64,000 bases of DNA from the NCBI GenBank assembly GCA_020425085.1, contig JAGQRW010000013.1:1-64000 (forward strand), written 5' to 3'. This DNA comes from Paracoccaceae bacterium. Its GTDB lineage: Bacteria; Pseudomonadota; Alphaproteobacteria; Rhodobacterales; Rhodobacteraceae. The notes under the pieces are model-generated. The model was given only the letters and a program-made list of their open reading frames with translations, made no database searches and was not told the DNA's origin. This document shows positions 14,752 through 60,843 of the stretch, in pieces. Positions within the stretch are counted from its first letter, which is position 1, and every line of letters begins with the position of its first letter. Position numbers and translations under genes: made by a program.

Positions 14752-15657
14752 ATGAATACAGACCCTGGTACACTGAAGATCACGCTGTTGGGAACCGGAA
14801 TGCCGAAGCCCAATATCAATGCCTTTGGCACCGCAACCATGATCGAGGCCGGGCAGGAGCGGGTCTTGATCGACTGTGGGCGCGGCACGGTCATCCGCAT
14901 GTCGCAGATGGGATTTGCAACCGGCCATACCGATACGCTCATCCTGTCGCATTATCACTCGGATCATTATGCGGGGATATTCGATCTGCTGATGACCGGC
15001 ACGATGCAGCACCCGCATTCAAACCGGGGCGGGCCATTGCATGTTTATGGGCCTCCTGGGGTGACGGATATCGCCGATGGTGCCTGGATCGCGACGCGAC
15101 CGGATCGCAACATCCGTGTTGCCGACCACGAGATCGACCCGGAGCATATGCGCATCATCCCGCATGAATATTCCGAAGGCGTGGTTTATGAAAAAAATGG
15201 CCTGAAGATCATTGCCATCGAAGTGGATCATGGCGAGTTCATTGATATCGCCTATGGGTTTCGGGTTGAATATAACGGCCATGTTTTCGTCCACAGTCAT
15301 GACACGCGCTATAACGAAAACCTGATTGCACAGGCACATGATGCGGATGTTTTCGTGCATGAGGTTGCGGGCGCCCCGGCAGACCTGATGGCGGAAAATC
15401 AGAAGGTAAAGTTGGTGATCGACCACCATGCAACCCCCGCTGAGGTCGGGCGTGTGTTTGCCCGGACCAAGCCAAGACTTGCCATGCTGACGCATCTTGT
15501 ATTGCTGCCGCCCGACGAGTTCACCATCGACATGGTGATGGCGGATCTGGCCGAGGAATATGACGGCATCGTGCTGGTCGCCGAAGACCTGATGACGATC
15601 GAAATCGGCAAGAACATCAGCGTGATCCCGTACAATCACGGCGCGCGTCCTGGATGA
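14752..15657 (+). CDS. MBL-fold metallo-hydrolase (RNase Z/arylsulfatase-like)
   Basis: A 301-residue metallo-beta-lactamase fold protein with the zinc motif HYHSDH (His67, His69, Asp71, His72) after an RVLIDCGRGTVIRM strand. Further ligands are likely the His residues in EVDHGEFIDIAYGFRVEY, HSHDTRYNE and VIDHHATPAE. It belongs to the RNase Z-like branch, which in catabolic loci contains arylsulfatases and lactone or ester hydrolases. There is no signal peptide, so it acts in the cytoplasm. It lies 31 bp before a LigM-like demethylase gene, suggesting the two process the same imported aromatic compound. I cannot name its substrate. Confidence 0.85.
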   Translation: MNTDPGTLKITLLGTGMPKPNINAFGTATMIEAGQERVLIDCGRGTVIRMSQMGFATGHTDTLILSHYHSDHYAGIFDLLMTGTMQHPHSNRGGPLHVYGPPGVTDIADGAWIATRPDRNIRVADHEIDPEHMRIIPHEYSEGVVYEKNGLKIIAIEVDHGEFIDIAYGFRVEYNGHVFVHSHDTRYNENLIAQAHDADVFVHEVAGAPADLMAENQKVKLVIDHHATPAEVGRVFARTKPRLAMLTHLVLLPPDEFTIDMVMADLAEEYDGIVLVAEDLMTIEIGKNISVIPYNHGARPG

Positions 15658-15688
15658 GACTGAAATCAACTTTCACTAAGGAAAACAG

Positions 15689-17047
15689 ATGTCTGTAACC
15701 AATCTGGAACAAAAAATCCAAGCGTCGGGCGGCGTTCTGAATATGCTTCGCAGCTCCAACCTCGGGCCGGTCATCTTTCCCGGCATTCCACCGGAGTTCA
15801 CCAATTGGCGCGATGAACAGCGCGCCTGGCAGCATTCGGTCGTGATGCTCGAACAATCCTTTCACATGACCGAACTGCATCTGCGCGGCGCGGATGTGCT
15901 GAAATTCGTCACCATGTTCGCCACCAACAATCTTGCGGATCTGCACCCGCTGCGGGCCAAGCAACTGGTCATGGTGGACCAGAACGGCCACATGATTTCA
16001 GATGCCATCGTGTTTTGCGAAGCGGATGATTTCCTGCGCGTCGTCGGCCCGCCGACGGCAAGCAACTGGCTGCAATACAACGCCGAAAAGAGCGATCTGA
16101 AGATCGAAGTGACGCGCGACGAAAACATGATCGTGCCGCGTCCGGGCCGCGATGTGTTCCGTTTTCAGTTGCAGGGCCCGAATGCCCTGCCGCTGATGCG
16201 CGAGGTGGTCGAGGGTGATCTGCCCGACATCAAGTTCTTCCATGTCGGTGAATTCAAGATTGCCGGCCAGACAGTGCGCGCGCTGCGGCATGGCATGGCC
16301 GGGCGCCCGGGCTTCGAGATTTACGGCCCCTGGGACGCGCAAACCGCCGTACGTGCAAAAATCGAAGAGGCCGGGCTGAAACATGATCTGCGCAAGGCCG
16401 GTTCGGTAACCTACGCATCTACCGGGCAGGAAAGCGGCTGGATGCCCCGGCCTTTCCCGGCAACCTATCTCGGCGACCAGATGAAGGCCTTTCGGCAATG
16501 GCTGCCAGCGAAATCCTTCGAAGGCACCGCCTCGCTTGGCGGCAGTTTCGTTTCCGACAAGCCGACCGACTATCTGGTTGAACCGAACGAGCTTGGCTAT
16601 GCCAAGATGATTCATTTCGAACACGATTTCATTGGCCGCGATGCGCTGCTGGCGAAAAAGGACATCGCGCCCCGCACCAAGGTGACGCTGGAATGGAACA
16701 ACGAGGACGTGTTCCGCGTGTTGCGCCAGTCAGTCGGCCTTGAACGGCCCCGGACCAAGTTCATCTCGTTGCCGATCCCGATGTACGCGACCTATGAATA
16801 CGATTCGGTTCTGGCCGACGGCAAACCGATTGGCATTTCGCAATGGTCGTCTTATTCGTCCAATGCCGGTGCCGTTCTGTCCACCGCGCTGCTGGATCAC
16901 GATGCCGTCGAGATGGGCAGGGAAGTGACCCTGATGTGGGGCGAACCCAACAGCAAACGCCGCACTGTGGAAGACCACGAGGTTGTTGGTATCCGGGCCA
17001 AGATCGCGCCGGTGCCGTATTTCGAGAAGACCATCAAACGTGACTGA
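15689..17047 (+). CDS. LigM-like tetrahydrofolate-dependent aminomethyl/O-methyl transferase (divergent paralogue)
   Basis: A 452-residue GcvT-fold protein related to vanillate/3-O-methylgallate O-demethylase LigM, which moves an aryl methyl group to tetrahydrofolate. Conserved blocks are TNWRDEQRAW, HGMAGRPGFEIYGPW, TGQESGWMP and GGSFVSDKPTDYLVEPNELG. The His corresponding to LigM His60 is kept (His59, in QSFHM) and so is the Tyr near 250 (GSVTYAST). At the position of LigM Tyr31 this copy has Phe30 (VIFPG). That suggests a different substrate or mechanism from the second copy at 55511. It is followed 105 bp later by a complete TRAP transporter. Confidence 0.82.
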   Translation: MSVTNLEQKIQASGGVLNMLRSSNLGPVIFPGIPPEFTNWRDEQRAWQHSVVMLEQSFHMTELHLRGADVLKFVTMFATNNLADLHPLRAKQLVMVDQNGHMISDAIVFCEADDFLRVVGPPTASNWLQYNAEKSDLKIEVTRDENMIVPRPGRDVFRFQLQGPNALPLMREVVEGDLPDIKFFHVGEFKIAGQTVRALRHGMAGRPGFEIYGPWDAQTAVRAKIEEAGLKHDLRKAGSVTYASTGQESGWMPRPFPATYLGDQMKAFRQWLPAKSFEGTASLGGSFVSDKPTDYLVEPNELGYAKMIHFEHDFIGRDALLAKKDIAPRTKVTLEWNNEDVFRVLRQSVGLERPRTKFISLPIPMYATYEYDSVLADGKPIGISQWSSYSSNAGAVLSTALLDHDAVEMGREVTLMWGEPNSKRRTVEDHEVVGIRAKIAPVPYFEKTIKRD

Positions 17048-17152: not shown

Positions 17153-18178
17153 ATGAATATCACTGGAAAGACCATTATCGCCGGCTTGTTTTCGGCTCTG
17201 GCCACAGGGGCCGCCGCCGATGAACAACTGGTCATGAACACCTTCTTTGGGCCGACCTATTTCCTCTACAAGCCAATCGTGGAGTGGACCGAAGACGTTG
17301 CCAAGGCCACGAATGGCCGGGTCACCATCTCGATACCGGCGGGTTCGTTGACACCGCCGCCGAAAATGGTGTCGTCGGTGCGCACCGGCATTGCCGATAT
17401 CGGCATTACCGCCAACATCTTTTTCCAGCAACAGGTGCCGGAACTGAGCTTTCCCTCGCTGCCGTTCCAGATCAGCGATGCCGAAGCGGCATCGGTTGCG
17501 GTACGTGAGACCTATGACGAATTTCTGGCCGACAAGAAGCCGATGAATCGCCTTGGTGTGGAACTTCTCAGCATCGTGGCCTTCAATGCGGCGCATCTTT
17601 ACAGCGTGAATGGCGGCGCGATCGACAGTATCGAAGAGTTGAAATCCCGTCGCATGTGGTCGTTGCCGGGCTATACCACCGACCTTATCGTCAACCTAGG
17701 TATCACGCCCGTCACCGGCCCGGCCGTGATGTTGAATGAGCATGTCTCCAAAGGTGTGCTTGACGCCTATTTCGGGGTCGGCCCTGATGCGGTTACCGAT
17801 TTCAACGTTTTGTCCTACACCGATGGCGTCACCGTCTTCCCGACCGGGGTTTCCACGGCGACATTCTCGATCTTCATCAACGAAAATGTCTGGAAGCGCC
17901 TGTCCGAGGAAGACCGCGCTGCCATCGCCTCGGTGTCTGGGGTTGAGTTCTCGCGCAAGATCGGGGCTGCGGCGCAAGCCTATGCCAATGATGCGATGGC
18001 CCGGATCGCTGATGCCGGTGCCGAGGTCATCGACGCATCGGATGTGTTTTATGCCGCCATGCAAGAGGCCGCCGTGCCGATCTACAACAGCTTTTATGAA
18101 GCCACCGCCGCCCAGGGTGTCGATGGTAAAGCGTTGGTGAAATCGTTCCGCGACAACTACGCCAAAGCGGCGAAGTAA
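17153..18178 (+). CDS. dctP: TRAP transporter substrate-binding protein (DctP)
   Basis: A 341-residue periplasmic solute receptor with a Sec signal peptide (residues 1-22, cleavage near GAAA/DE). The DctP fold is seen in GSLTPPPKMVSSVRTGIADIG and KSRRMWSLPGYTTDLIVNLG. It captures an organic acid-like solute for the membrane subunits encoded directly downstream. GGAGG precedes ATG. Placement after the LigM-like gene suggests the ligand is an aromatic or methoxylated acid, which is an inference. The sequence is clearly different from the other DctP genes here (28925, 57074), so the ligands probably differ. Confidence 0.88.
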   Translation: MNITGKTIIAGLFSALATGAAADEQLVMNTFFGPTYFLYKPIVEWTEDVAKATNGRVTISIPAGSLTPPPKMVSSVRTGIADIGITANIFFQQQVPELSFPSLPFQISDAEAASVAVRETYDEFLADKKPMNRLGVELLSIVAFNAAHLYSVNGGAIDSIEELKSRRMWSLPGYTTDLIVNLGITPVTGPAVMLNEHVSKGVLDAYFGVGPDAVTDFNVLSYTDGVTVFPTGVSTATFSIFINENVWKRLSEEDRAAIASVSGVEFSRKIGAAAQAYANDAMARIADAGAEVIDASDVFYAAMQEAAVPIYNSFYEATAAQGVDGKALVKSFRDNYAKAAK

Positions 18179-18183
18179 ACACC

Positions 18184-18642
18184 ATGAGCGGGCTGATCTC
18201 ACGTGTTCTGCCCAAGCTGCAAAAGGGACTGGAATGGCTTGCCGTTCCGGTCCTCGGCGCGCTGGTCGGGCTGATCGTGCTGGACGTGGTCCTGCGCGGG
18301 GTCTTCAAGGCACCGATTTTCGGCTCAAGCGAAATGGCCAACTTCCTTTTGACGCTGTCGGTCGGGGTCGGCATGACCATCGCCGCCATGCGCCAGGGCC
18401 ATATCCGGATGGATTTGCTTGATAAACGAATGGTCAAGTTGTTCGGAGCAAACCGGTACCGCCGTATTCTGCAAATCGTTACCGCTGTTGGCACCTTGCT
18501 GTTTGGTGGTCTGGTAGGCCTGTTCGCCTGGGAATCCGCCAAATATGATGATGTCACATCGGTCCTGCACTGGCCCATTGCGCCTGTGTTTTTCATAGCG
18601 GCAGGTCTGATGATCTTTGCCGCTCTTCTTGGCAGAAAGTAG
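18184..18642 (+). CDS. dctQ: TRAP transporter small membrane subunit (DctQ)
   Basis: A 152-residue protein with four membrane segments (about residues 16-38, 53-72, 95-117 and 128-150) and the family feature VLDVVLRGVFKAPIFGSSE between the first and second. DctQ subunits couple to DctM to form the sodium-driven secondary transporter. The gene starts 5 bp after the dctP stop and ends 6 bp before dctM, so all three are one transcript. The reading frame is intact and of normal length. Confidence 0.87.
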   Translation: MSGLISRVLPKLQKGLEWLAVPVLGALVGLIVLDVVLRGVFKAPIFGSSEMANFLLTLSVGVGMTIAAMRQGHIRMDLLDKRMVKLFGANRYRRILQIVTAVGTLLFGGLVGLFAWESAKYDDVTSVLHWPIAPVFFIAAGLMIFAALLGRK

Positions 18643-18648
18643 GCCCGG

Positions 18649-19947
18649 ATGACGATCGCGCTGATCGGCTTTGCCGTCCTGATCTTTCTCGCCTTTATTG
18701 GCGTGCCACTGGCTTTTGCCTCGCTTATCGTGGGCATTGCCGGTTTTGCCATCTTTCGCGGTATCGAGCCGGCGTTCTATGTAGCAAGCCAGCAGGTTTC
18801 TGACCTGATTTCGAATTTCAACCTGATCGTTCTGCCCTTGTTTATTCTGATGGGCGAGATGGCGCGGCATGGCCGCATGACGGATGCGCTTTATGATCTG
18901 GGGCAGGCGGCGGTTGGCCGCTTCCGGGGCGGTTTGGCCATGGCCACGGTGGTGTCCTGCGGCTTGTTTTCGACCGTCAGCGGCAGTACCATTGCCACGG
19001 CGGCAACCATGGCCAAGGTCTCGTTGCCGCCGATGCGCCGCTATGGATATGGCGATGGCCTGGCGGCGGGGTCGGTGGCGGCCGGTGGCACGCTTGGCAT
19101 CCTCATTCCACCCAGCGTGCCGATGGTGATCTACGCCATCTTCGCCAAGCAGGATATCGGCAAGATGTGGATCGCCGGTATTCTGCCGGGCATATTGATG
19201 ATCCTGACATTCATCATCGCCATCATGATCTATGTCCGCCTGTTCCCTGCCACGCTCAGCGAAAATGCCGGTACGGAAGACGCCGCTGAAGAAAAGGCCG
19301 CCCCGGGTGGCGCGCTGGCTTTTCTGGCGTTGTTCCTGCTGGTGATCGGCGGCATCTATCTCGGCATCTTCACCCCGACCGAAGCCGCCGCCATCGGTGC
19401 CTTTGGCGCCTGGATCCTTGCCATGCTGCGGGGACGGATGCGCAGTCTGGATGAATACCGCGAGGTGTTTTCCTCAGCCGCGGGGATATCCGCTTCGATC
19501 TTCGTGGTGGCCAGTTGTGCGCTGGTCTTCAGCCAGTTCATCAATATCAGCGGCTTGCCCTACACGCTGCTTGGATTCACGCAATGGCTTGAATTAAGCG
19601 GTTTGCAACTGATCCTGATGATCTCGGTCATCTGTATCCTTCTGGGCATGGTGTTTGACTCGCTTGGCATCCTTGTCCTGATCGTGCCGATCTTTCTGCC
19701 CGCGCTGGAGGCGCAGCAGATTGATCTGATCTGGTTTGGCGTCATCGTCATCATTCTGGTGGAAATCGGCCTGATCTCGCCGCCGCTTGGGGTGAATGTA
19801 TTTGTCGTAAAGGCGGTGGATGGCCGAATTGACGTGATGAAGGCATTTCATGGCGCCATCGCATTTGTTCTGGCAATGATCGTGACGGTGGGGCTTATCA
19901 TCCTGTTCCCGGGCATCACATCGGTTCTGACCAGCATGATGCGCTAG
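18649..19947 (+). CDS. dctM: TRAP transporter large membrane subunit (DctM)
   Basis: A 432-residue very hydrophobic protein with the DctM core: FILMGEMARHGRMTDALYDL, GLFSTVSGSTIATAATMAKV, then GGTLGILIPPSVPMVIYAIF and the C-terminal LISPPLGVNVFVVK. It is the elevator-type transport domain that works with DctQ and the periplasmic receptor. It ends the MBL-hydrolase/LigM-like/TRAP operon that began at 14752. No strong terminator follows; an 830-bp region with a degraded gene comes next. Confidence 0.92.
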   Translation: MTIALIGFAVLIFLAFIGVPLAFASLIVGIAGFAIFRGIEPAFYVASQQVSDLISNFNLIVLPLFILMGEMARHGRMTDALYDLGQAAVGRFRGGLAMATVVSCGLFSTVSGSTIATAATMAKVSLPPMRRYGYGDGLAAGSVAAGGTLGILIPPSVPMVIYAIFAKQDIGKMWIAGILPGILMILTFIIAIMIYVRLFPATLSENAGTEDAAEEKAAPGGALAFLALFLLVIGGIYLGIFTPTEAAAIGAFGAWILAMLRGRMRSLDEYREVFSSAAGISASIFVVASCALVFSQFINISGLPYTLLGFTQWLELSGLQLILMISVICILLGMVFDSLGILVLIVPIFLPALEAQQIDLIWFGVIVIILVEIGLISPPLGVNVFVVKAVDGRIDVMKAFHGAIAFVLAMIVTVGLIILFPGITSVLTSMMR

Positions 19948-20774: not shown

Positions 20775-23135
20775 TCAAGTGGTTTCCTGCGAAACCGCCC
20801 TGGATCGCGCGGCAAGCGTGTGCCAACCCAGGAATACTGCCGCGCTGGTGATACCGGCAATCTGCATCCAGGGGATCAGGGACAGAACGATGATCGCAAG
20901 CCCGATGCGCACAACGATTTCCCACCCGGCCAGTTTGCGAAGGTCAAATCCCGCCAGCGCGCTGGCAAGCAGATAAAGCGCCAGAACGATTCGCAGCAGC
21001 AAGAGCGTCAGGGCCGGCCAATTCACCGAACCATCATAACCGGGCAGGTAGGCGATGGCGTTGGTACTTGACGTCGGATCAATCACGGCGTCTTCGATCA
21101 GCAGTATCTCGGGGTATAGCGCAAAGACGAAGGGGATCACGAACATCACGATTCCGGATTTCACCGCCGAAAATCCGGTCATCATCGGACTGGCTTTGGT
21201 AATGGAGGCCGCCGCAAAAGCCGCAAGCGCGATTGGCGGGGTGATGGCGCTGGCGACGGCAAAGTAGAAAATGAACATATGGGCGGTAAATGTCGCGATG
21301 CCAAGGCCCGCCAGAACCGGCCCCATCAGGAGTGCGACGTTGATATAGGCCGGCACCGCGGGCATTCCCATGCCAAGCAGAAGCGCAATAATCATCGTGA
21401 CGAACAACGCGATCAACTGAAATCCGACCGAGCCGCCTTGCCCCAGATTGAGCGTGTTCAACCAGCCCAGAATATCCAGCGAGAAAAAGTTGGGCAGGCC
21501 GGTGAATTGCAGGCAGAAGTCGATGATCGAAACCGCCAGGAACATCAGATAGAGGGTGGATACCAGAATTCCGGCCTCCGACAACGCCATCAGAATCTTG
21601 CCGGGTTTCGCCCTTACCTCGGGATCCACAAACAAAAGAACCAACAGCAGCAACACCGCCCACCAGCCCGCGCTGCCTGCATCGCCCGCCGCGTTTTGTA
21701 TGGCTTTTTGAAACCACGACAGGCTTTCAACGACACAGGTCCCATCCACGAAAGTTCGCTCTGCCCCGGCCAGCCCACCCAAAAGACCGCATCCGACGGT
21801 GTCCTTGTTGGTCAAAAGCAAAACCAGGATCAGCAGGATCGGCCCGAAGATCATCACCAGGTTGAGGATGTCCTGCCGCGACAGACGCATGTAATCGGTC
21901 AGTTCGCCAATCGCCTGAATGTTCTGTTTGCGCGCCTGAAACACCACCGACAGGAAGATGCAGAAGAAATAGGCAACCGCCGGGATGATCGCGGCGATGA
22001 TCACCTCCGAATAGGGCACCACGGTAAGCGACGCCAGAACAAAGGCGGCAACACCCATCACCGGCGGCATGATGGAGCCCCCCGAAGATGCCGCCGCTTC
22101 GATTCCGCCCGCGAATACCCGGGAAAACCCGCGCTTCAGCATCATCGGAATTGTCAGCACACCGGTTGACAGCACATTGACGATCGGCCCGCCGGAAATG
22201 GTGCCGAACATCGCGGATGAGACAATCGCCGCATGCGCAGGCCCGCCGCGCAGTTTGCGCGTCCAGCGAAACGCCAACTTGATCAGCGACTGGCCCCCGG
22301 CCGAAGCACCAAACAGCGAGCCCAGAACCAGATAGGGGAAAATCGTGTTCAGCATGATATTCATGAACTGGCCCAGCAGACCCGAGCCGTTGTTGACCAG
22401 AATGTCGTGCACCCTTGGTCGCCCGTCAGACAGCATGCGCGGTTCACCCGCCAGCTTGGTCATCAGGTATTTGTTGATGTCCTCGGGTCCGTGAAAGTAC
22501 CAGACGAAAACGGTGACAATAGTGTAAATCGCAATGCCAAGCGCCACCGCAACCAGCGCCAGACCCCAGACCCGTATGTTATAGGCCAGAAATACCAGCA
22601 CGGTCAGGCCGACGATCAGAACAAGCCAGCCGCCGGTGTTGCCGACACAGCTTGGATTTTCCACTGTCGTTGGTGCGGGCAGTCCCATGGTGCTGGCGAT
22701 TTCGGTTTCGATGCGCAGGGCTTCACCGATCAGGCGGGCGCGTTCACCTGTAATCTGGTCGATCAGGCAGATCGATTCAATTTCGACAATGTAGGTCACG
22801 GACACCGTGAACGCTGAAACAACCATTGCCAGATCCAGAAACAGTCCAAACCGGCGCTTGGCCGCCGAGGCATTGGCCCATTCTTTCCAGGCCGAGTTTT
22901 TCAGCACGACGCACAGCATCATCAGCGCAAACATCAGCGGATAGAACCATTCGGTCGGAAACCGATGGATCCTGAACCAGCTAACCCCGGTCAGATCGCG
23001 CAATATGGAATCCAATCCGGGAATGCCGGGAATGGCGTTGGTAAGGCCGGCAACGACGATGAACAGAGACAGCCAGAATATAACACCGCGTGTGTCGGGA
23101 TCCGGTGCCATTGCGGTATTGGATGTCTCGTTCAT
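20775..23135 (-). CDS. Fused TRAP transporter permease (DctQ-DctM fusion, TAXI type)
   Basis: A 786-residue membrane protein in which a DctQ-like N-terminal part (membrane segments within residues 20-230) is joined to a DctM-like part with GTISGGPIVNVLSTGVLTIP, GGIEAAASSGGSIMPPVMGV and the C-terminal ITPPIALAAFAAASI. This fused form partners with TAXI-type receptors, and one is encoded directly upstream (23196-24242). ATG 23135 is favoured over the in-frame TTG at 23153, because GAGG lies 7 bp before it. It is the last gene of the sulfatase/TAXI/TRAP operon. C-terminal hydrophobic segments beyond the DctM core are usual for this fusion class. Confidence 0.9.
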   Translation of the reverse strand: MNETSNTAMAPDPDTRGVIFWLSLFIVVAGLTNAIPGIPGLDSILRDLTGVSWFRIHRFPTEWFYPLMFALMMLCVVLKNSAWKEWANASAAKRRFGLFLDLAMVVSAFTVSVTYIVEIESICLIDQITGERARLIGEALRIETEIASTMGLPAPTTVENPSCVGNTGGWLVLIVGLTVLVFLAYNIRVWGLALVAVALGIAIYTIVTVFVWYFHGPEDINKYLMTKLAGEPRMLSDGRPRVHDILVNNGSGLLGQFMNIMLNTIFPYLVLGSLFGASAGGQSLIKLAFRWTRKLRGGPAHAAIVSSAMFGTISGGPIVNVLSTGVLTIPMMLKRGFSRVFAGGIEAAASSGGSIMPPVMGVAAFVLASLTVVPYSEVIIAAIIPAVAYFFCIFLSVVFQARKQNIQAIGELTDYMRLSRQDILNLVMIFGPILLILVLLLTNKDTVGCGLLGGLAGAERTFVDGTCVVESLSWFQKAIQNAAGDAGSAGWWAVLLLLVLLFVDPEVRAKPGKILMALSEAGILVSTLYLMFLAVSIIDFCLQFTGLPNFFSLDILGWLNTLNLGQGGSVGFQLIALFVTMIIALLLGMGMPAVPAYINVALLMGPVLAGLGIATFTAHMFIFYFAVASAITPPIALAAFAAASITKASPMMTGFSAVKSGIVMFVIPFVFALYPEILLIEDAVIDPTSSTNAIAYLPGYDGSVNWPALTLLLLRIVLALYLLASALAGFDLRKLAGWEIVVRIGLAIIVLSLIPWMQIAGITSAAVFLGWHTLAARSRAVSQETT

Positions 23136-23195
23136 GTCAGACCTCGGTGACAAAGGTACAGAGGGCGACCTTCGCCGCCCCCCGGTTCCGAAAAA

Positions 23196-24242: not shown

Positions 24243-24265
24243 GGTTTCCTCCCTTTTTGTTGATA

Positions 24266-28875: not shown

Positions 28876-28924
28876 GTCTTTTCACCAAACCAAACCAAAT
28901 CAAACAAGATCAAGGGAGGAAATG

Positions 28925-48751: not shown

Positions 48752-48788
48752 CAACCGTGGCCACGCGCCACATGAAGGGGAGAAAAAC

Positions 48789-50066: not shown

Positions 50067-50130
50067 TCGCCAGATGACTGCGTGGTGTCCGGGTTTGCGG
50101 GCACCACGCACAACCGGTTCGGGAGATATG

Positions 50131-51559: not shown

Positions 51560-51560
51560 T

Positions 51561-53451: not shown

Positions 53452-54384
53452 ATGGCCAAACAGCAAAAGACCATCATCACCTGCGCCATTACCGGCGCGA
53501 TCCACACACCCACCATGTCGGATGCGCTGCCGTATACGGCGGATGACATCACCGCGCAGGCGGTCGCGGCGGCCGAGGCGGGGGCGTCGATCCTGCACCT
53601 GCATGCGCGCCGCCCGGAAGATGGCGGCGTGTCGGTCGATGTCGATCATTTCGCTGCCTTCCTGCCGCGGATCAAGCAGGCAAGCGGTGCGGTGGTCAAT
53701 ATTTCCACCGGTGGGTCGCTGACCCTCAGCATCGCGGATCGGGTCAGGCCGGCGACGACGTTTTCGCCCGAGATGTGCTCGCTCAACATGGGTTCGATGA
53801 ATTTCTCGTTCCATCCGCTTGCCAAACGCTATGACGATTGGAAATTCGATTGGGAAAAGGACTATGTGGCCAATTCCGAAGGCAACATCTTCCGCAACAC
53901 CTTCCGCGATATCCGCGAGGCGGCCGAAACCCTGGCACCGCATGACATCAAGTTCGAACATGAATGCTATGATGTCGGCCACCTTTACAATTTGAAATTC
54001 TGCATGGAAGCCGGGCTGTTCAAGGCACCGGTATTCATCCAGTTCATCTTTGGCATCCTTGGCGGCATCGGCCCTGAGGTGGACAACCTGATCTTCATGA
54101 AACGCACCGCCGATCGCCTGTTCGGCGACGATTACCGCTGGTCGGTTCTGGGGGCCGGGGGGGCGCAGATGCCACTGGCCACCACCGCCAGCCAGATGGG
54201 CGGCAATGTCCGCGTCGGGCTGGAGGACAGCCTGTTGATCGCGCGCGGCAAGCTGGCAGAAAGCAATGCCCAACAAGTCACCAAGATCCGCCGCATCATC
54301 GAGGATCTGGGCAGCCAGGTGGCAACCCCGGACGAGGCGCGCGAAATCCTCGACCTGAAAGGCGGCGACAAGGTCGCGTTCTGA
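53452..54384 (+). CDS. BKACE-family beta-keto acid cleavage enzyme
   Basis: A 310-residue BKACE (formerly DUF849; Kce type). The zinc site is LHLHAR with His49 and His51, and a later Glu in VRVGLEDSLL. Other conserved parts are NISTGGSLTLSIADRV and SLNMGSMNFSF. Members condense a beta-keto acid with acetyl-CoA to give acetoacetyl-CoA and a shortened CoA ester. Here the upstream 3-hydroxyacyl-CoA dehydrogenase could make the beta-keto acid. The pairing recalls carnitine breakdown (dehydrogenase plus BKACE), but the dehydrogenase here does not look like the carnitine one. The gene ends the operon. Confidence 0.93.
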   Translation: MAKQQKTIITCAITGAIHTPTMSDALPYTADDITAQAVAAAEAGASILHLHARRPEDGGVSVDVDHFAAFLPRIKQASGAVVNISTGGSLTLSIADRVRPATTFSPEMCSLNMGSMNFSFHPLAKRYDDWKFDWEKDYVANSEGNIFRNTFRDIREAAETLAPHDIKFEHECYDVGHLYNLKFCMEAGLFKAPVFIQFIFGILGGIGPEVDNLIFMKRTADRLFGDDYRWSVLGAGGAQMPLATTASQMGGNVRVGLEDSLLIARGKLAESNAQQVTKIRRIIEDLGSQVATPDEAREILDLKGGDKVAF

Positions 54385-54710: not shown

Positions 54711-55460
54711 ATGTCGAACGGGCCAAACCAGACCGACGAACGCGGTTCACAGGTTGAGCACGCCCTCTTGGGGCTTCGCTCGCTGGTGCTTGGCGGCGCG
54801 TTCGAGGCGAATGGCCGGATCTCCGAAGTTGCCACCGCCGAACGTCTCGGCGTCTCGCGCACGCCGCTGCGTCAGGCCATGGACCGGATGGTCGGCGAAG
54901 GCCTCCTGATCCGCAACGAGACCGGCGGCGTCCGGGTGGCCAGCTTTACCGTTGCCGACATCGTCGACGCCATTGAACTTCGCGGCGTGATCGAAGGTGC
55001 TGCTTCGCGCCTTGCTGCGGAACGTGGTGCCGAAACATCGGCGCTTGAAGCGGTGGAACAGATCATCAGCGGGATCGACCACGCGCTTGAACGCCCGCGC
55101 GGTATGGATTTCGATACCTATGTTGCGCTCAACGCCCGGTTCCACAGCCAGATCGCCGCGCTTTCCGGCAGCGCGATCATGCAGCGCGAAGTCGAGCGGG
55201 TCTATCAGTTGCCATTCGCCTCGCCGTCGTCGTTCTTGCAGGAACAAGAGATGATCCCGGATTTCCGCCAGTCACTGCTGGTGGCGCAGAGCCACCATCG
55301 CGCCATCCTTGACGCCATCCGCAACCGCGAGGGTGCCCGCGCCGAGGCGCTCAGCCGCGAACATGCGCGCCTTGCGCGACTCAACCTCGAACATGTCATG
55401 CGCGGCGATCCGGCCTGGATCGACCGTTTCCCCGGTCTCGCCCTGGTTTCCACTGGGTGA
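54711..55460 (+). CDS. FCD-type GntR-family regulator
   Basis: A 249-residue GntR protein. The winged helix-turn-helix at about residues 25-75 includes ISEVATAERLGVSRTPLRQA and MVGEGLLIRNETGGVRVAS. The helical FCD effector domain follows (VDAIELRGVIEGAASRLAAE, then NARFHSQIAALSG), whose Asp/His residues may bind a metal and an organic acid. ATG 54711 has GGGGGAG in front; the TTG frame start at 54696 is rejected. It lies 50 bp upstream of the LigM-like demethylase gene and most likely controls it and itself through the TGTATACA sites. Confidence 0.92.
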   Translation: MSNGPNQTDERGSQVEHALLGLRSLVLGGAFEANGRISEVATAERLGVSRTPLRQAMDRMVGEGLLIRNETGGVRVASFTVADIVDAIELRGVIEGAASRLAAERGAETSALEAVEQIISGIDHALERPRGMDFDTYVALNARFHSQIAALSGSAIMQREVERVYQLPFASPSSFLQEQEMIPDFRQSLLVAQSHHRAILDAIRNREGARAEALSREHARLARLNLEHVMRGDPAWIDRFPGLALVSTG

Positions 55461-55510
55461 GGCGCAATCGCCGTTCTGAAACACCAAATCCCGATGGAGG
55501 AGAAACAAAG

Positions 55511-56923
55511 ATGCCCAGCCTTACCGATGTGATTGCCCAGCACAAGAACCCGGTCGAGATGCTTCGAAACTCGAAGATCGGGATGTATGTCTATCCGGTG
55601 GTGACGCCCGAATTCCAGAACTGGCGCAACGAACAGCGCGCCTGGCGCGAGACCGCCGTTCTGTTCGACCAGACGCACCACATGGATGAGCTGATCGTCG
55701 AAGGTCCGCAGGCCGAGGAATTCCTCGCCCATCACGGCATCAACAGCTTTTCGAATTTCGACCTGAACCGCGCCAAGCACTATGTTCCCGTCACGCCGAA
55801 CGGCCATGTGATCGGTGATCACATCATCTTTCGTGAACGGCAGGACAAGTTCATCCTGGTCGGCCGCGCGCCGGTTTCGAACTGGCTTCAGTTCTGCGCC
55901 GCCTGGGGCAAGTGGAACGTGCGCATCAAGCACGATCCCCGCTCCACCTCGCGCCCCGAGGGCGAGCGCGTGCTGCGCACCCATTACCGCTATCAGATAC
56001 AAGGCCCCGACGCGCCGAAGATCATCGAAAAGATGAACGGCGGGCCGATTCAGGACATCAAGTTCTTCCATGTCGACTGGATCAATGTCGGCTCCAAGCG
56101 GGTGCAGGCGCTGCGCCATGGCATGTCCGGCGCGCCCGGTCTGGAGATCTGGGGCCCCTACGAGGACAAGAACTATATCCTGTCAACCGTCATGCAGGCC
56201 GCACAAGACGCGGGCGTCGACCTGGTCCGCTGCGGCAGCCGCGCCTATTCCACCAACACGGTCGAATCCGGCTGGATCCCATCGCCACTGCCCGGCATCT
56301 ATACCGGCGACGGCATGCTGAAGGAGTACCGCGACTGGCTTGGCCCCGAAAGCTACGAGGCAAGCGGCTCGATCGGCGGTTCGTTCGTATCGGGCAACAT
56401 CGAGGATTACTACGTCAACCCGTTCGAACTCGGCTATGATTTCTATATCGGCTGGAAGAAAAAGGACTTCGTCGGCAAGGCGGCGCTGGAAAAGATGAAA
56501 GGCGCCAAAAATCGCAAGAAGGTCACCTTTGAATGGAACGCCGAGGATGTGATCAAGGTCGTCAGTTCGGCCTTCAAGCCGGGCGAGGAAAACTACAAGT
56601 GGATCGACTTTCCGCAGCCGAACTACGCCTCATCCTCGGCCGACATGGTCATGCATGGCGACAAGATGGTCGGCATGTCGATGTTCAACGGCTATTCGTT
56701 CAACGAGCGCTGCATGCTATCGCTTGGCGTCGTGAACCAGGACGTCAAGGTCGGCGATGTGCTGACCCTCAAATGGGGCGAGCCGGATCATACCGGCAAG
56801 ACCTCGACCGAAAAGCACAAGCAGGCCGAGATCCGGGTCCGGGTTTCGCCGACCCCCTACGCCGCCGAGGCGCGCACCAACTACGCCGATAGCTGGCGCA
56901 GCAAGGCCGCAGCCAACGCCTGA
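55511..56923 (+). CDS. ligM: LigM-type tetrahydrofolate-dependent aryl O-demethylase
   Basis: A 470-residue GcvT-fold protein very close to LigM of Sphingobium, which demethylates vanillate and 3-O-methylgallate by moving the methyl group to tetrahydrofolate. Tyr28 (MYVYPVV, LigM Tyr31) and His57 (QTHHM, LigM His60) are kept, as is the Tyr of GSRAYSTNTVESGW and the motif HGMSGAPGLEIWGPY. GGAGGAG stands before ATG 55511. It is followed by a DctPQM TRAP transporter and a MetF-type reductase, and preceded by a GntR regulator. Substrate identity is inferred from LigM and not proven; syringate or related methoxybenzoates are alternatives. Confidence 0.88.
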   Translation: MPSLTDVIAQHKNPVEMLRNSKIGMYVYPVVTPEFQNWRNEQRAWRETAVLFDQTHHMDELIVEGPQAEEFLAHHGINSFSNFDLNRAKHYVPVTPNGHVIGDHIIFRERQDKFILVGRAPVSNWLQFCAAWGKWNVRIKHDPRSTSRPEGERVLRTHYRYQIQGPDAPKIIEKMNGGPIQDIKFFHVDWINVGSKRVQALRHGMSGAPGLEIWGPYEDKNYILSTVMQAAQDAGVDLVRCGSRAYSTNTVESGWIPSPLPGIYTGDGMLKEYRDWLGPESYEASGSIGGSFVSGNIEDYYVNPFELGYDFYIGWKKKDFVGKAALEKMKGAKNRKKVTFEWNAEDVIKVVSSAFKPGEENYKWIDFPQPNYASSSADMVMHGDKMVGMSMFNGYSFNERCMLSLGVVNQDVKVGDVLTLKWGEPDHTGKTSTEKHKQAEIRVRVSPTPYAAEARTNYADSWRSKAAANA

Positions 56924-57073
56924 GCAAATGCGCGCGGCCGGGGTAAATCCGTGGCCGCCCGGGAATTTGATTTGAGTACCGGCAACCGGTGTGGAATACC
57001 GGAAGTCAAAAACTGAGGAATGGGATGGCGGCCATGGTGGCCAAGACCCCGACCAACTTGGAGGAGACCAGAA

Positions 57074-58054
57074 ATGACGATCAGGACCACTTTGCTTGGG
57101 GCGGCACTGGCCGCTGCAACAGTTCTTCCGGCCAGTGCCGAGGAACTGAAATTCGCAAGTTTCGCATCGCCCGCCCATACCATCACCGCATCGGTGATCG
57201 ACAAGCTGAACGATTCGTTGTCAAGCGCCACCAACGGCGCCCTTACCGTCAAGGGCTATTTCGGCGGCGCCCTTGGGGCCGGTCCGGCCGAACAATATGT
57301 CCGCGTGCTACAAGGTGTCGCCGACATCGCCTGGGGTCTGCCCGGCTATACCTCGTCGCAATTCCCCAGAACCATGCTGGCCGAGATGCCGGGCGTCATC
57401 CCCGAAGGCGTGCCGGGTTACGTCGTGCTCTGGAAAGCCTATGATCAGTACCTGAAGGGCGAATTTCCCGGCACCAAGCCGCTTGCGCTCTGGACCGCCG
57501 AGCCGAACATCCTGATCATGAAGGAAAAGGTTATCCGCAAACCAGAGGATCTGGCCGGCCTGAAGTTGCGCGTCGCTGGCACCACTGCCGGTGAAGCGGT
57601 TTCGGCACTTGGCGCGACCCCGGTGCAGATGCCGATGAACGACGTCTATAACGCGCTTCAGACCGGGCTGATCGACGGCGCGATCTCGGGTTACTCGACG
57701 CTTTCGGACTTCAAACTTGACGAGGTGGCATCGTCTTACACCTTCGGTGTCCCGCTTGGCCGTCTGACCTTCTACACGGTGATGAACAAGGCCAAGTACG
57801 ACAGCCTGCCCGACGACCAGAAGGCGGCGATCGACGCCATCGCCGGTGAACCGCTGTCCAAAAGCGCCGAGGATGCCTGGCTGGTCACCGCGACCGCAGC
57901 ACTGGATGCGGCCCGCGCCAGCGGCGACAACACCATCGTCGAACTGACACCGGAACAGGCCAAGCCCTTCGCCGATGCCATCTCTGCGGTGACCGAGAAC
58001 TACGCCAAGTCGGTCGGCGCCGAAGACGTGCTGAAATCAATGCGCGGTAAATGA
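57074..58054 (+). CDS. dctP: TRAP transporter substrate-binding protein (DctP)
   Basis: A 326-residue periplasmic receptor with a Sec signal (residues 1-22, cleavage after ASA). DctP features are GALGAGPAEQYVRVLQGVAD and PEDLAGLKLRVAGTTAGEAV, the latter with the Arg used to bind the ligand carboxylate. GGAGGAG precedes ATG 57074, so the longer frame at 57020 is rejected. It lies 150 bp after the LigM-type gene, whose methoxylated aromatic acid substrate it may capture. A GC-rich hairpin (about 56935-56962) lies between them. Confidence 0.9.
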   Translation: MTIRTTLLGAALAAATVLPASAEELKFASFASPAHTITASVIDKLNDSLSSATNGALTVKGYFGGALGAGPAEQYVRVLQGVADIAWGLPGYTSSQFPRTMLAEMPGVIPEGVPGYVVLWKAYDQYLKGEFPGTKPLALWTAEPNILIMKEKVIRKPEDLAGLKLRVAGTTAGEAVSALGATPVQMPMNDVYNALQTGLIDGAISGYSTLSDFKLDEVASSYTFGVPLGRLTFYTVMNKAKYDSLPDDQKAAIDAIAGEPLSKSAEDAWLVTATAALDAARASGDNTIVELTPEQAKPFADAISAVTENYAKSVGAEDVLKSMRGK

Positions 58055-58596
58055 ACCAGCCGGCGGCGGGACCGATGCGGATCGTTCGCACCATTGCCGA
58101 CAGGCTGATCGGCCTCGCCGCCATTCTCGGCTCTCTCGGGCTTCTGTCCGAGGGGGCGGTCATCCTGGCCGACGTGATCGGCCGGGCCTTTGGCCACCCG
58201 CTGTTCGGCGCGCAGGACATCGTGACCATGGCCAGCGTGATCGTGGTGTTTGGCGGCATGGCAATCTGTGACCGCATCGGCGGCCATATCGCGGTCGATA
58301 TTTTCGAACGCTATTTTCCGCCGGCTTTCAACCGCGGCGTGGATATCGTCACGGCGCTGATAGGCACGGCAATCTTCCTTGGAATCGCCTGGGCGGTTCT
58401 GGACAGCGCCAGGATATCTTTGATGCTGAACCTTTCCACCAACATCATCCGCCTGCCCAAGGTCTGGTTCCAGTATGCGCTCTCGGGATTTGCCGTGCTG
58501 ACTGCACTTGGCATGCTGCTGCGCGCGGTGGAGCTTGCATTCTCGGGCCGCGATGTGCGTGAGCGGGACAACGTGCGCATCAGGGAATCGGTATGA
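58051..58596 (+). CDS. dctQ: TRAP transporter small membrane subunit (DctQ)
   Basis: A 181-residue four-segment DctQ protein with the feature VILADVIGRAFGHPLFGAQD and a second pair of helices around VDIVTALIGTAIFLGIAWAV. The start overlaps the dctP stop by 4 bp (ATGA); ATG 58075 is an alternative. Its stop overlaps the dctM ATG by 4 bp, so the three are tightly coupled. Length is normal and no domain is missing. Confidence 0.88.
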   Translation: MNQPAAGPMRIVRTIADRLIGLAAILGSLGLLSEGAVILADVIGRAFGHPLFGAQDIVTMASVIVVFGGMAICDRIGGHIAVDIFERYFPPAFNRGVDIVTALIGTAIFLGIAWAVLDSARISLMLNLSTNIIRLPKVWFQYALSGFAVLTALGMLLRAVELAFSGRDVRERDNVRIRESV

Positions 58597-59897
58597 GCGC
58601 CGTCGCCACCGGCATTTTGGGTGTAATTTTCCTGTTCATCCTGTTGATGATCCGGATTCCGGTGGCATTTTCGATGTTTGTCGTCGGTTTCACCGGCATC
58701 TGGTATCTGAACGGTTTCGGTGCTGCGATGGCCCTGCTGGCCTCGGAAAGCTTCACCCTGGCCTCGTCGCCGGAACTGGTGGTCATTCCGCTGTTCATCC
58801 TGATGGGCAACGTCGCCTCGGCAACCGGCATGAGCCGCCGCCTTTACGATGCCGCCTATGCGCTGATCGGCTCGGTTCGCGGCGGGCTGGCCTCGGCCAC
58901 CGTGATCGGCTGCGGCGGCTTTGCGGCGCTTTCCGGATCGTCGGTGGCCTCTGCCCTCACCATGGGCAAGGTGGCGCTGGTCGAGATGGATCGCTTTGAT
59001 TACGACAACCGGCTGTCCACCGGCGCGGTCGCCGCCGGGGGCACCCTAGGCATCCTGATCCCGCCCTCGACCGGTTTCGTGATCTACGCCATCCTGACCG
59101 AGCAGTCGATCGGTCGCCTGTTCCTCGCCGGTGTCTTTCCCGGCATCCTTTTGCTGCTAGCCTTTGTGGCCTGTGTCAGCGTGATCTGCTGGTTCCGCCC
59201 GGCCTTTGGCCCGGCCGGACCGCGCACCAACACCATGCAGAAGCTGCGCGCCATCGGCGGTGCCGCGCCGATCATTCTGGTGATCCTGCTGACCATCGGC
59301 GGCATTTATGGCGGCTTTTTCTCGCCGGTCGAGGCGGCGGCGGTGGGTGCCGGTCTTGTCATCCTGATCGGCATCGTGACCCGCACTCTATCGCTCGGCG
59401 ATCTGTGGAACGCCACCCGAGATTCGGTCACCACCACCTCCACGGTGATGCTGATCCTGATCTCGGCCTACCTCATCAACCCGTTTCTGGCCTACAGTCA
59501 GATCCCGGATTTCGTCGGCGGCGCAATCATCGGCCTGAACCTGCCGCCGATGGCGGTTCTGGCGCTCATGCTTTTGATCTATCTGGTGCTCGGATGCTTC
59601 CTCGAAGGTTTCGCCATGATGGTGCTGACGCTGCCGATCTTCTTTCCGATCATCACCAGCCTTGGCATCGACCCGATCTGGTTCGGTGTGCTGGTGGTGC
59701 TGACGCTTGAAATGGGGCTGATCTCACCGCCGGTGGGTCTTAACGTCTTCATCGTGAAATCGGTGGCGATGAACGTTCCGCTCGGGCGGATCTTTGAAGG
59801 CGTGATCCCGTTCTGGCTGATGATGCTGCTGACGCTGGCGATCCTGGTCGCGTTTCCGCAGATTTCGCTGTTCTTGCCAAACTCCATGTTCAACTGA
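58593..59897 (+). CDS. dctM: TRAP transporter large membrane subunit (DctM)
   Basis: A 434-residue DctM protein: FILMGNVASATGMSRRLYDA, GGFAALSGSSVASALTMGKV, AAGGTLGILIPPSTGFVIYA, GGIYGGFFSPVEAAAVGAGL and the C-terminal LISPPVGLNVFIVK. It forms the transport core of the LigM-linked TRAP system and is followed 22 bp later by the MetF-type gene. The order LigM, DctP, DctQ, DctM repeats that at 15689-19947. Confidence 0.93.
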   Translation: MSAVATGILGVIFLFILLMIRIPVAFSMFVVGFTGIWYLNGFGAAMALLASESFTLASSPELVVIPLFILMGNVASATGMSRRLYDAAYALIGSVRGGLASATVIGCGGFAALSGSSVASALTMGKVALVEMDRFDYDNRLSTGAVAAGGTLGILIPPSTGFVIYAILTEQSIGRLFLAGVFPGILLLLAFVACVSVICWFRPAFGPAGPRTNTMQKLRAIGGAAPIILVILLTIGGIYGGFFSPVEAAAVGAGLVILIGIVTRTLSLGDLWNATRDSVTTTSTVMLILISAYLINPFLAYSQIPDFVGGAIIGLNLPPMAVLALMLLIYLVLGCFLEGFAMMVLTLPIFFPIITSLGIDPIWFGVLVVLTLEMGLISPPVGLNVFIVKSVAMNVPLGRIFEGVIPFWLMMLLTLAILVAFPQISLFLPNSMFN

Positions 59898-59919
59898 CGC
59901 CTGACCAAAGGATAATCGC

Positions 59920-60843
59920 ATGCCAATTCTGCCTTTTTCCCGCAAACGCCCGAAACCCCGCCTGGTTGGGGTCGGCGACCTGTTGCAGGGGTTCTCGATC
60001 GAGGTGATGCCGCGCACCGCCGCCAAGATCGCGGATTTCCGCGCCATCCTGCCCGCTGGCACAATGGTATATATCGCCCATATCGAGGGTACGGAAATCA
60101 ACGACATGGTGGCCACCGCCAAGCGGCTGACCGATGAAGGTTTCCGGGCAATGCCGCATATCCCGGCCCGGATCATCAAAGACCGCGCCGAGTTCGAAAC
60201 CTGGCTTATCCGCTATGCCACCGAGGCCGGCGTCGATCAGGCGCTGGTGCTTGCCGGCGGTCCCAGGGTTCCGGCGGGCGACTATCACTCGACCATGCAG
60301 CTTCTGGAATCCGGCCTGTTCGACAAGCATGGCTACAGGCGCCTGCATGTCGCAGGCCATCCCGAGGGCAACCGCGACATCGACCTCGATGGCAGCACCA
60401 GGCTGGTGGACGAGGCCGCCCAATGGAAGCAGGCATTCGCCGAACGCACCGGGGTGGATATGGCGATGGCGACCCAGTTCGCATTCGACGCCGGCGCGGT
60501 GGTGAAATGGGCCGCCCGCCTGAAAGCGGCGGGCGTCGATCTGCCGATCCATGTCGGCGTCGCCGGTCCGGCCAAGCTTCAGACCATGATCAAGTTCGCC
60601 ATCGCCTGCGGCGTCGGCCCCTCGCTTTCGGTGCTGCAAAAACGCGCCGCGGATGTGACCCGCCTGTTGATGCCCTATGAGCCGGGCGATGTGCTGTCGG
60701 ACCTCGCAGCTCAGGTGCGCGACGCCGACACCAATATCGCCGGCGTGCATTTCTTCCCCCTCGGCGGCATCAACGCCACCGCCGAATGGATCGCCAACGC
60801 CACCGCCGAGACCCGGAGCGAGCAGGGCGCCGCTGGCGCCTGA
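59920..60843 (+). CDS. Methylenetetrahydrofolate reductase-family protein (MetF-type)
   Basis: A 307-residue TIM-barrel protein of the MetF family. It contains SIEVMPRTAAKIADFRAILP, GTEINDMVATAKRLTDEGFR, DQALVLAGGPRVPAGDYHST, then HVAGHPEGNRDIDLDGSTRL and FDAGAVVKWAARLKAAGVDL. MetF interconverts 5-methyl- and 5,10-methylene-tetrahydrofolate using FAD. In vanillate degraders it regenerates folate after LigM-type methyl transfer, and this gene ends the LigM/TRAP operon, so the same role is likely. The sequence is diverged from housekeeping MetF, so it is probably a dedicated catabolic copy. Confidence 0.82.
   Translation: MPILPFSRKRPKPRLVGVGDLLQGFSIEVMPRTAAKIADFRAILPAGTMVYIAHIEGTEINDMVATAKRLTDEGFRAMPHIPARIIKDRAEFETWLIRYATEAGVDQALVLAGGPRVPAGDYHSTMQLLESGLFDKHGYRRLHVAGHPEGNRDIDLDGSTRLVDEAAQWKQAFAERTGVDMAMATQFAFDAGAVVKWAARLKAAGVDLPIHVGVAGPAKLQTMIKFAIACGVGPSLSVLQKRAADVTRLLMPYEPGDVLSDLAAQVRDADTNIAGVHFFPLGGINATAEWIANATAETRSEQGAAGA

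Follow-up and report, generated by a model that had tools for sequence, protein, structure and literature searches.

A conserved block of chalcone isomerase and putative phloroglucinol ring-opening genes as a candidate flavonoid catabolic island in a Rhodobacteraceae-type bacterium

The DNA analyzed here, referred to as the window, comprises bases 1-64000 of the 64,965-base contig JAGQRW010000013.1, part of a 3.34 Mb genome with 57% GC whose host is probably a marine bacterium of Rhodobacteraceae type. Its central block, located at 27,705-54,384, combines a bacterial chalcone isomerase (CHI), a hydrolase of the PhlG/phloretin-hydrolase family and a set of genes that appears to open the phloroglucinol ring, and this block recurs in a second genome. 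The core is therefore proposed, with reasonable though not strong confidence, to serve the import and oxygen-independent breakdown of flavanone- or chalcone-type flavonoids via phloroglucinol. An earlier sequence-only reading had described a 46-kb catabolic island for polyphenol- or chalcone-type compounds. The catabolic theme is supported here through chalcone isomerase and phloroglucinol ring opening; the 46 kb do not behave as one unit, the conserved block covering only 27.7-54.4 kb. For phlorotannins as substrates, which that reading had also named, the data speak neither for nor against.

The identities of the parts were obtained from Pfam, NCBIfam and PDB searches of the window proteins, and all coordinates are collected in the table. 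By family, the key protein is a bacterial chalcone isomerase, with its activity predicted from sequence. It aligns with the Eubacterium ramulus enzyme (PDB 4d06/3zph) at E = 1.3e-56, residues 13-283 of the query lying on 5-283 of the chain and both ferredoxin-like domains being covered. It matches PF18232, and its EthD-family match is below the cutoff (TIGR02118, 22.6 vs 30.5 bits). An EthD-like protein had previously been placed beside each of two PhlG hydrolases; one of them is indeed EthD, and the other is this isomerase. In the alignment, His33, Asp36, Tyr48 and Thr71 are kept as H42, D45, Y57 and T80, and the catalytic His is invariant in all seven CHI sequences aligned. A catalytic role of His33/Asp36 is described in the accessible part of one source (PMC9694015), and His33 is present in all branch-A proteins according to the accessible text of Meinert et al. 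(2021) (PMC8361940). Elsewhere, Asp79 is replaced by Pro and, behind a gap, Arg125 by Lys, while pocket positions 50, 91, 122 and 135 differ and 87 is gapped. Since Pro79 accompanies acceptance of a para-methoxy B ring in the same text (PMC8361940), Pro at this position would fit the neighboring O-demethylases, with the alignment gaps lying just behind position 79.

CHI was found in one of the 394 family genomes searched, namely the own one, and the one genus mate searched (G169) is without it. A pattern scan of genome contigs, which reaches close relatives only, gave five loci. The closest relatives belong to a Silicimonas metagenome-assembled genome (MAG; 81% identity) and a Rhodobacteraceae MAG (80%), on which the assignment of the host is based, the Acetoanaerobium CHI is 40% identical to that of the window, and distant CHI-like matches are carried by plasmids of Clostridioides (36%) and Novosphingobium (27%). 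Regarding the surroundings of these relatives, a second CHI-like protein (L002 9218-10006; 26%, Chalcone_N 33 bits) is found in Silicimonas between CHI and the compact hydrolase described below. The Clostridioides difficile plasmid protein (L043 9980-10828, annotated hypothetical) lies near an NAD(P)H-dependent oxidoreductase, recalling the pair of flavin mononucleotide (FMN) reductase and CHI in Acetoanaerobium, and that of Novosphingobium (L044 7902-8729) lies between a pyrroloquinoline quinone-dependent dehydrogenase and an acyl-CoA ligase.

The partner of CHI is a compact protein for which no sequence match was obtained in Pfam (PF18089 included), NCBIfam or PDB. In its predicted model (pLDDT 66), the top Foldseek matches were 3hwp (PhlG) and 5xey (phloretin hydrolase), with E = 7e-4 and TM 0.4-0.5, other START-like folds being close behind. 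Profile comparison by hhalign gave E = 1.9e-6 over 24 columns around HxxxE...FLPxxY, and the Acetoanaerobium orthologue scores 22.1 bits against the PF18089 cutoff of 22.7. This medium-quality fold, short profile match and sub-cutoff orthologue suggest a divergent, PhlG-like relative. Thus, where two PhlG-family hydrolases had been proposed, one is clear and the other is PhlG-like by fold and remote similarity. The compact protein accompanies CHI in six of the seven CHI genomes or loci. It is matched in the own genome and in four of the five CHI genomes (G394, G395, G396 and G398, G397 being without it), and no match was found in the CHI-less genus mate. It adjoins CHI in L002, L003 and L006, and in Vibrio it shares a contig with CHI at a distance of about 10 kb. 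In Acetoanaerobium it follows the beta-keto acid cleavage enzyme (BKACE) inside a phloroglucinol gene run, where no PhlG match was found in the 27 kb examined (threshold 1e-8). Within the plasmid collection, the Clostridioides and Novosphingobium CHI-like plasmids gave no compact-protein match. The pair of CHI and compact hydrolase recurs in Vibrio, in an actinobacterial MAG and in Acetoanaerobium.

The clear PhlG protein exceeds the PF18089 cutoff of 22.7 bits with 233.9 and matches phloretin hydrolase 5xe5 at E = 8.7e-33. Its residues H127, E175, H281 and E285 (HxxxE), which we take to be the metal site of the PhlG family, are invariant in the four sequences aligned. It remains below the equivalog cutoff for 2,4-diacetylphloroglucinol (DAPG) hydrolase (NF047887, 88.3 vs 600 bits). 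The adjacent EthD protein was considered as a second CHI and rejected, blastp and hhalign having given nothing, the latter with an EthD profile of only two sequences.

The reductive, oxygen-independent route of phloroglucinol degradation has been studied so far mainly in gut and sediment anaerobes. In the accessible text of Zhou et al. (2023) (PMC10470551), phloroglucinol is degraded by the short-chain dehydrogenase/reductase (SDR) PGR, the cyclase-family enzyme DPGC, the 3-hydroxyacid dehydrogenase TfD and the BKACE TAL, with the signatures TR(S/N) in PGR, Trp20/Tyr22 in DPGC and Trp16 in place of Glu14 in TAL. A phloroglucinol cluster in marine alpha- and gammaproteobacteria is already reported there. 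The window holds one gene of each of these four families, and this set, with a cupin alongside, appears by sequence to constitute phloroglucinol ring-opening genes; the cupin, SDR, cyclase and 3-hydroxyacid dehydrogenase had been missed at first. The best PDB match of the SDR is 5g4k/5g4l (E = 1.3e-51), listed there only as an SDR family protein and presumably the phloroglucinol reductase of Conradt et al. (2016). Among 24 own-genome matches to the Vibrio PGR-like protein, it is the best (5e-50, the next being 5e-34), with 41% identity. The Vibrio DPGC-like protein matches no gene of the own genome but the cyclase (33% identity), and W-P-Y is located at the CsDPGC Trp20/Tyr22 positions in nine of 11 aligned cyclase rows, the window included, the numbering 20/22 being exact in the Acetoanaerobium row. 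The 3-hydroxyacid dehydrogenase is 44% identical to its Vibrio counterpart, and its Ser, His and Asn were located by motif position in alignment with that counterpart rather than CsTfD. The BKACE is 30% identical to that of Vibrio, an unlinked BKACE of the own genome being closer to the Vibrio lyase (39%), and passes NF053538 (3,5-dioxohexanoate:acetyl-CoA acetone transferase) with 533 bits against 430. It should be noted that in all nine loci with the PGR-DPGC set (the window, L003, L004, L033-L036, L039 and L042) the cupin lies directly upstream of the SDR. The cupin search covered the window and 11 loci, the match in L004 being weak (30%), and gave none in L002, L005 and L006, which lack the PGR-DPGC set in the stretch examined. 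The cupin is not mentioned in the accessible main text of Zhou et al. (2023) (PMC10470551). The phloroglucinol route is supported by family, by the signature residues of one enzyme and by linkage, and is questioned by two signatures, the PGR motif and the BKACE Trp.

The extent of the block was established by comparing 55 window entries, including a RACo fragment, with one 50-kb contig (C8) of the Rhodobacteraceae MAG G395, a counterpart being defined by at least 60% identity over at least 70% of the query. Counterparts that are 65-99% identical were found for 25 of the 26 core genes, the MFS transporter being the sole exception, and for none of the 29 entries outside the core. They are packed within 25.3 kb in altered gene order, and the cupin, searched separately, is present on the same contig (85%). 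Identity reaches 98.6% for the cyclase and 96.5% for the LVIVD protein, and is just 65% for the compact hydrolase. The island is regarded as more than a chance assembly, since another genome carries 25 of the 26 core genes together. CHI and the DPGC-type set occur together in three further genomes, namely G395, where they share the contig, Vibrio (L004) and Acetoanaerobium (L042). When the window cyclase was searched in the five CHI genomes, its matches in G395 (99%) and in Vibrio (G396, 38%) lay on the CHI contig. Moreover, cyclase, cupin, SDR, dehydrogenase, transporter and BKACE stand in a single run on plasmids from Pacificitalea, Aminobacter, Novosphingobium and Sinorhizobium. Silicimonas carries such a run with a 78% identical sulfatase and with no BKACE found in the 38 kb examined. 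On plasmid pSC52_2 of Rhodobacteraceae bacterium SC52, a cyclase homologue (96%, residues 7-119) is interrupted by an IS5 transposase (L045 15001-15350).

From the observed gene families, signature residues and linkage, a pathway with its substrates, step order, uptake and regulation can be proposed. Flavonoids would be taken up via the TRAP, MFS or LIV-ABC systems. CHI would then open the flavanone C ring to give the chalcone, which a reductase outside the placed genes may convert into the dihydrochalcone. Subsequently, C-C hydrolysis of PhlG type, by the clear family member and perhaps by the compact protein, would release phloroglucinol and a phenylpropanoid acid. The SDR, with the cupin alongside, would reduce phloroglucinol to dihydrophloroglucinol, the ring of which would be opened hydrolytically by the cyclase. 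The 3-hydroxyacid dehydrogenase would form triacetate, and the BKACE would split it with acetyl-CoA into acetoacetate and acetoacetyl-CoA. The reductase gap could be bridged either by direct cleavage of the chalcone by the compact hydrolase or by an enzyme elsewhere in the genome, for example of the PF00724 family. A bolder form of the proposal is put forward tentatively, as a possibility that we would not yet favor: marine alphaproteobacteria may own a complete oxygen-independent island leading from flavonoids to acetoacetate, in which CHI and a new compact (~206 aa) PhlG-like family act on the chalcone to give phloroglucinol and cinnamate, no reductase being needed, while the cupin would be an overlooked PGR partner and the sulfatase and O-demethylases would open sulfated or methoxylated flavonoids of seagrass type.

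A number of observations weigh against flavonoid breakdown via phloroglucinol. On the side of ring opening, AGN replaces the TR(S/N) of PGRs in the SDR and in its aligned alphaproteobacterial orthologues, and the window BKACE has Ile where the characterized triacetate lyase has the Trp that Vibrio and Acetoanaerobium keep. NF053538 is broad, being passed by six of eight further BKACEs including the unlinked one of the own genome (C8, 514.6 bits), while the Trp-type lyase candidates of Vibrio (189 bits) and Acetoanaerobium (228 bits) fail it; the match was for this reason rejected as proof of the BKACE step, and the name of the model may be applied too broadly. The Silicimonas cyclase operon has no homologue of the window BKACE in the 38 kb around it, and the cyclase of that genome (G394, 81%) is located on a contig other than that of CHI. 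In G397 the cyclase matches reach up to 47%, with two aligned rows lacking W-P-Y, and G398 has CHI and no match to the window cyclase. It is conceivable that the set of SDR, cyclase, dehydrogenase and BKACE opens another phloroglucinol-like ring by the same chemistry, for example that of a C-methylated or substituted 1,3-diketone-forming phenol. Such a substrate would fit the consistent change of cofactor and substrate signatures among the aligned alphaproteobacterial SDRs and BKACEs, two operons that adjoin other aromatic genes (a ring-hydroxylating dioxygenase, maleylacetate reductase or intradiol dioxygenase), and the stretches L033-L036, none of which contains a CHI match. However, W-P-Y is kept in most cyclase rows, and in G395 the set shares its contig with CHI and PhlG, the hydrolysis by which is expected to yield phloroglucinol. 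A different ring is thus considered rather unlikely.

On the side of the flavonoid, two A-ring positions of CHI differ, Gln69 being replaced by Ile78 and Gln101, behind an alignment gap, by Glu104. According to the accessible text of Meinert et al. (2021) (PMC8361940), Gln69, Thr71 and Gln101 are highly conserved outside CHI branches 1 and 2, and 13 of 13 chosen branch-A candidates were active; because of the latter, the differing residues weaken the CHI assignment and do not remove it. CHI need not be a main step either, since Fcr, a reductase of E. ramulus, turns naringenin into phloretin independently of CHI, as stated in the accessible part of PMC8398226. No chalcone or flavanone reductase could be placed in the island, Fcr itself not having been searched for. 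All eight PF00724 match pieces are on other contigs of the own genome, where the FMN reductase that precedes the Acetoanaerobium CHI also found no match in a search run without a positive control. These differences at the A ring, the taxifolin to alphitonin conversion by E. ramulus CHI (accessible text of PMC9694015), and the PhlG score far under the DAPG-hydrolase cutoff would suit a side-chain cutter, with CHI, PhlG, EthD and the luciferase-like oxidoreductase acting on flavanonols (ring contraction to auronols), acylphloroglucinols or phlorotannin-like compounds instead of flavanones. The catalytic pair is nevertheless kept, and CHI chemistry requires a flavanone, chalcone or flavanonol, so that this reading is held to be improbable. 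More improbable still is the absence of any common pathway, unrelated catabolic operons having gathered by chance on one contig. Separate regulators of the operons, the rarity of CHI in the family, and the lack of co-conservation of LigM1 and the sulfatase with the core would be in line with chance, but not the recurrence of the core, rearranged, in another genome, nor that of the CHI-compact hydrolase pair and of CHI with the DPGC set in Vibrio and Acetoanaerobium. Breakdown of flavanone- or chalcone-type compounds via phloroglucinol is therefore retained as the preferred interpretation.

The flanks contain two O-demethylase genes, termed LigM1 and LigM2, together with MetF-like and sulfatase genes. 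Enzymes of the LigM/DesA type carry out tetrahydrofolate-dependent O-demethylation in Sphingobium SYK-6. LigM1 is below both NCBIfam cutoffs (LigM, 439.7 vs 580; DesA, 491.9 vs 800) and has no close orthologue in the CHI genomes, where the best match is 43%. LigM2 has orthologues in G395 (83%) and G394 (79%), neither of them on a contig that carries the core or the cyclase; Vibrio G396 and the CHI-less genus mate gave no match. The MetF-type partner of the sequence-only reading proved MetF-like with a weak score (TIGR00676, 26.9 bits against a cutoff of 293.7). It has no Pfam match at 1e-3 and is 34% identical to an annotated methylenetetrahydrofolate reductase that adjoins a LigM homologue in Rhizobium anhuiense. 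No orthologue of this protein or of the flanking transporters was found on the G395 core contig, the sole place searched. The sulfatase matches 4upi over its full length and carries CGPSR, Cys-x-Pro-Ser-Arg being the formylglycine motif of type I sulfatases. Its 78% orthologue was found only in Silicimonas, inside the cyclase operon, the next in the CHI genomes being 53%; the closest plasmid relative is 57% identical among the best 12 of 696 records, and in the plasmid collection LigM1 and the sulfatase have only relatives below 60%. Co-occurrence in other genomes, proposed earlier as a check for the shared pathway, was thus observed for 27.7-54.4 kb and not for LigM1, LigM2, MetF and the sulfatase, none of which is on the G395 core contig. 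It is partly rescued by the LigM2 orthologues elsewhere in G395 and G394 and by the Silicimonas sulfatase. Because their orthologues do not accompany the core on that contig, the flanks are regarded as plausible accessories outside the conserved block. As separable additions, their LigM, MetF-like and sulfatase products probably strip methyl and sulfate groups off the phenolics handled by the core, or off related ones, and methylated or sulfated compounds may be counted among the candidate substrates. Flavonoids of seagrasses are often sulfated, as far as the accessible literature goes, which would make the link to the sulfatase ecologically reasonable.

Table. Features of the core block and its flanks in the window, in order of position
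Feature	Position	Strand	Evidence and remarks
MBL-fold hydrolase	14680..15657	+	PF12706; 38-40% homologues inside cyclase operons L033, L034
DesA/LigM-like O-demethylase 1 (LigM1)	15689..17047	+	PDB LigM 5x1i, E 5e-118
Flank TRAP transporter	17153..19947	+	
Truncated RACo-type (corrinoid-protein reductive activator) fragment	20042-20545		PF17651 only, stops around
TAXI-TRAP transporter, overlapping sulfatase gene end	20775..24269	-	PF06808, PF16868
Sulfatase of 4upi/4upl group	24266..25930	-	PF00884 165 bits; PDB 4upi, E 5e-192; CGPSR
Nitroreductase-family, malonic-semialdehyde-reductase (RutE) like; core start	27705..28409	+	PF00881; PRK05365 262.6 > 152; 80% in G395:C8
TRAP transporter P-Q-M, core importer	28748..31896	+	PF03480, PF06808; 80-90% in G395:C8; middle gene 30035-30592 outside Pfam scan
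IclR regulator	31900..32703	-	PF01614; G395:C8 counterpart
Cupin, directly upstream of PGR-like SDR	32835..33176	+	PF07883
SDR, phloroglucinol-reductase-like	33195..33989	+	PDB 5g4k/5g4l; 41% to Vibrio PGR-like SDR
HpcH/HpaI class II aldolase	34021..34821	+	PF03328; TIGR02311 249.6 vs cutoff 368.8
LVIVD beta-propeller	34808..36067	+	PF08309; 96-98% in G395; fold match phosphotriesterase 5hrm
D-2-hydroxyacid dehydrogenase	36077..37066	+	PF02826, PF00389
Membrane protein, cytochrome-b561-like by eye only	37056..37763	+	no Pfam/NCBIfam match; 74% counterpart in G395:C8
Compact (206 aa) PhlG-like putative C-C hydrolase, CHI partner	38207..38827	+	fold search, hhalign
Bacterial chalcone isomerase, likely start ATG 39203	39188..40039	+	PF18232; PDB 4d06/3zph
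Luciferase-like flavin-dependent oxidoreductase	40327..41385	-	PF00296; 97% in G395:C8
MFS transporter	41681..42838	+	PF07690; 52% homologue adjoining Vibrio CHI
EthD-domain protein	43064..43849	+	PF07110
PhlG/phloretin-hydrolase family C-C hydrolase	43846..44766	+	PF18089 233.9 bits; PDB 5xe5
LysR regulator	44831..45742	-	PF00126; homologue beside CHI genes in L002, L003
IclR regulator, divergent to cyclase operon	45842..46654	-	PF01614
Cyclase-family hydrolase, dihydrophloroglucinol-cyclohydrolase-like	46812..47669	+	33% to Vibrio DPGC-like; W-P-Y
3-Hydroxyacid dehydrogenase, triacetate-forming-dehydrogenase-like	47819..48751	+	44% to Vibrio counterpart
LIV-type ABC importer, 5 genes	48741..53449	+	94-95% in G395:C8
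BKACE, triacetate (3,5-dioxohexanoate) cleavage candidate	53452..54384	+	PF05853; NF053538 533 > 430
LigM vanillate/3-O-methylgallate O-demethylase (LigM2)	55457..56923	+	NF047885 630.6 > 580
Flank TRAP transporter	57020..59897	+	P and M genes scanned
MetF-like TIM barrel, putative methyl-THF (tetrahydrofolate) partner	59920..60843	+	TIGR00676 E 2.8e-6, 26.9 vs 293.7 bits

Of the remaining identifications in the sequence-only reading, those of two LigM/DesA-family genes, the HpcH/HpaI aldolase, the BKACE and a cytoplasmic sulfatase, which shows no signal peptide by eye, were borne out. Its five transport systems become six on recounting (three TRAP, one TAXI-TRAP, one LIV ABC and one MFS), and its island start at 14752 falls on an ATG inside the MBL gene, the longest open reading frame of which begins at 14680. 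The minus-strand frames 46785-47738 and 47759-48865 were overruled by the codon GC pattern and by homology, both favoring the plus-strand cyclase and dehydrogenase, and the frames 21279-22169, 40303-41250 and 61622-62515, for which there was no family match, were treated as non-genes. No tRNA or Rfam family was found in the window. Before the island, positions 1-9504 hold genes of polysaccharide/export type with a GC content of 0.51-0.55, compared with 0.55-0.64 elsewhere, the Pfam scan having covered the last of these genes only. The RACo fragment looks like the relic of another O-demethylase system. The actinobacterial locus L005 contains a 31% homologue of the LVIVD protein, 1.1 kb upstream of its CHI. 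For the LVIVD protein of the window, the best fold match of the predicted model (pLDDT 70) is the phosphotriesterase 5hrm of Sphingobium TCM1 (E = 4e-15, the next other entry being 2e-10), and the LVIVD protein may for this reason be a metallohydrolase.

To our knowledge, marine flavonoid breakdown is poorly described at the gene level. The block offers a named, testable gene set with chalcone isomerase as the obvious first activity to assay, and it would place ring opening of the anaerobe type in a lineage, the Rhodobacteraceae, that is usually regarded as aerobic. The cupin and the compact CHI-linked hydrolase may be unrecognized parts of the pathway in anaerobes too. In the open-licence PMC literature, searches aimed at the union of CHI, PhlG and phloroglucinol genes in a Rhodobacteraceae-type block found no report of it; the sulfatase of the Silicimonas operon, the cupin constantly present beside the SDR and the compact hydrolase linked to CHI were likewise not met in print, without having been searched for individually. 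Every kind of enzyme except the compact hydrolase has characterized relatives, and what is new is the combination, the host and the two uncharacterized partners, cupin and compact hydrolase.

In comparison with known systems, the island resembles flavonoid degradation in Eubacterium ramulus and Flavonifractor plautii (CHI, Fcr/enoate reductase and phloretin hydrolase) in joining CHI and the PhlG/phloretin-hydrolase family in one block. It differs in the additional compact PhlG-like protein, in having no placed reductase, and in its Rhodobacteraceae-type host, CHI hosts being mostly anaerobic or facultatively anaerobic in the accessible text of Meinert et al. (2021) (PMC8361940). With the PGR-DPGC-TfD-TAL pathway of Clostridium scatologenes, as given in the accessible text of PMC10470551, it shares the same four enzyme families and the Trp/Tyr of DPGC. 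Unlike that pathway, the SDR is without TR(S/N) and the BKACE without Trp, the genes are split over two operons, one of them with a LIV-ABC importer, and a cupin stands beside the SDR. Compared with the SYK-6 O-demethylation system, LigM2 of the flanks passes the LigM equivalog cutoff, whereas LigM1 passes neither cutoff, and neither gene is with the core in G395. The sulfatase agrees with the 4upi/4upl group over its full length and in its Cys motif, and its closest copy seen is that of Silicimonas, inside a cyclase operon.

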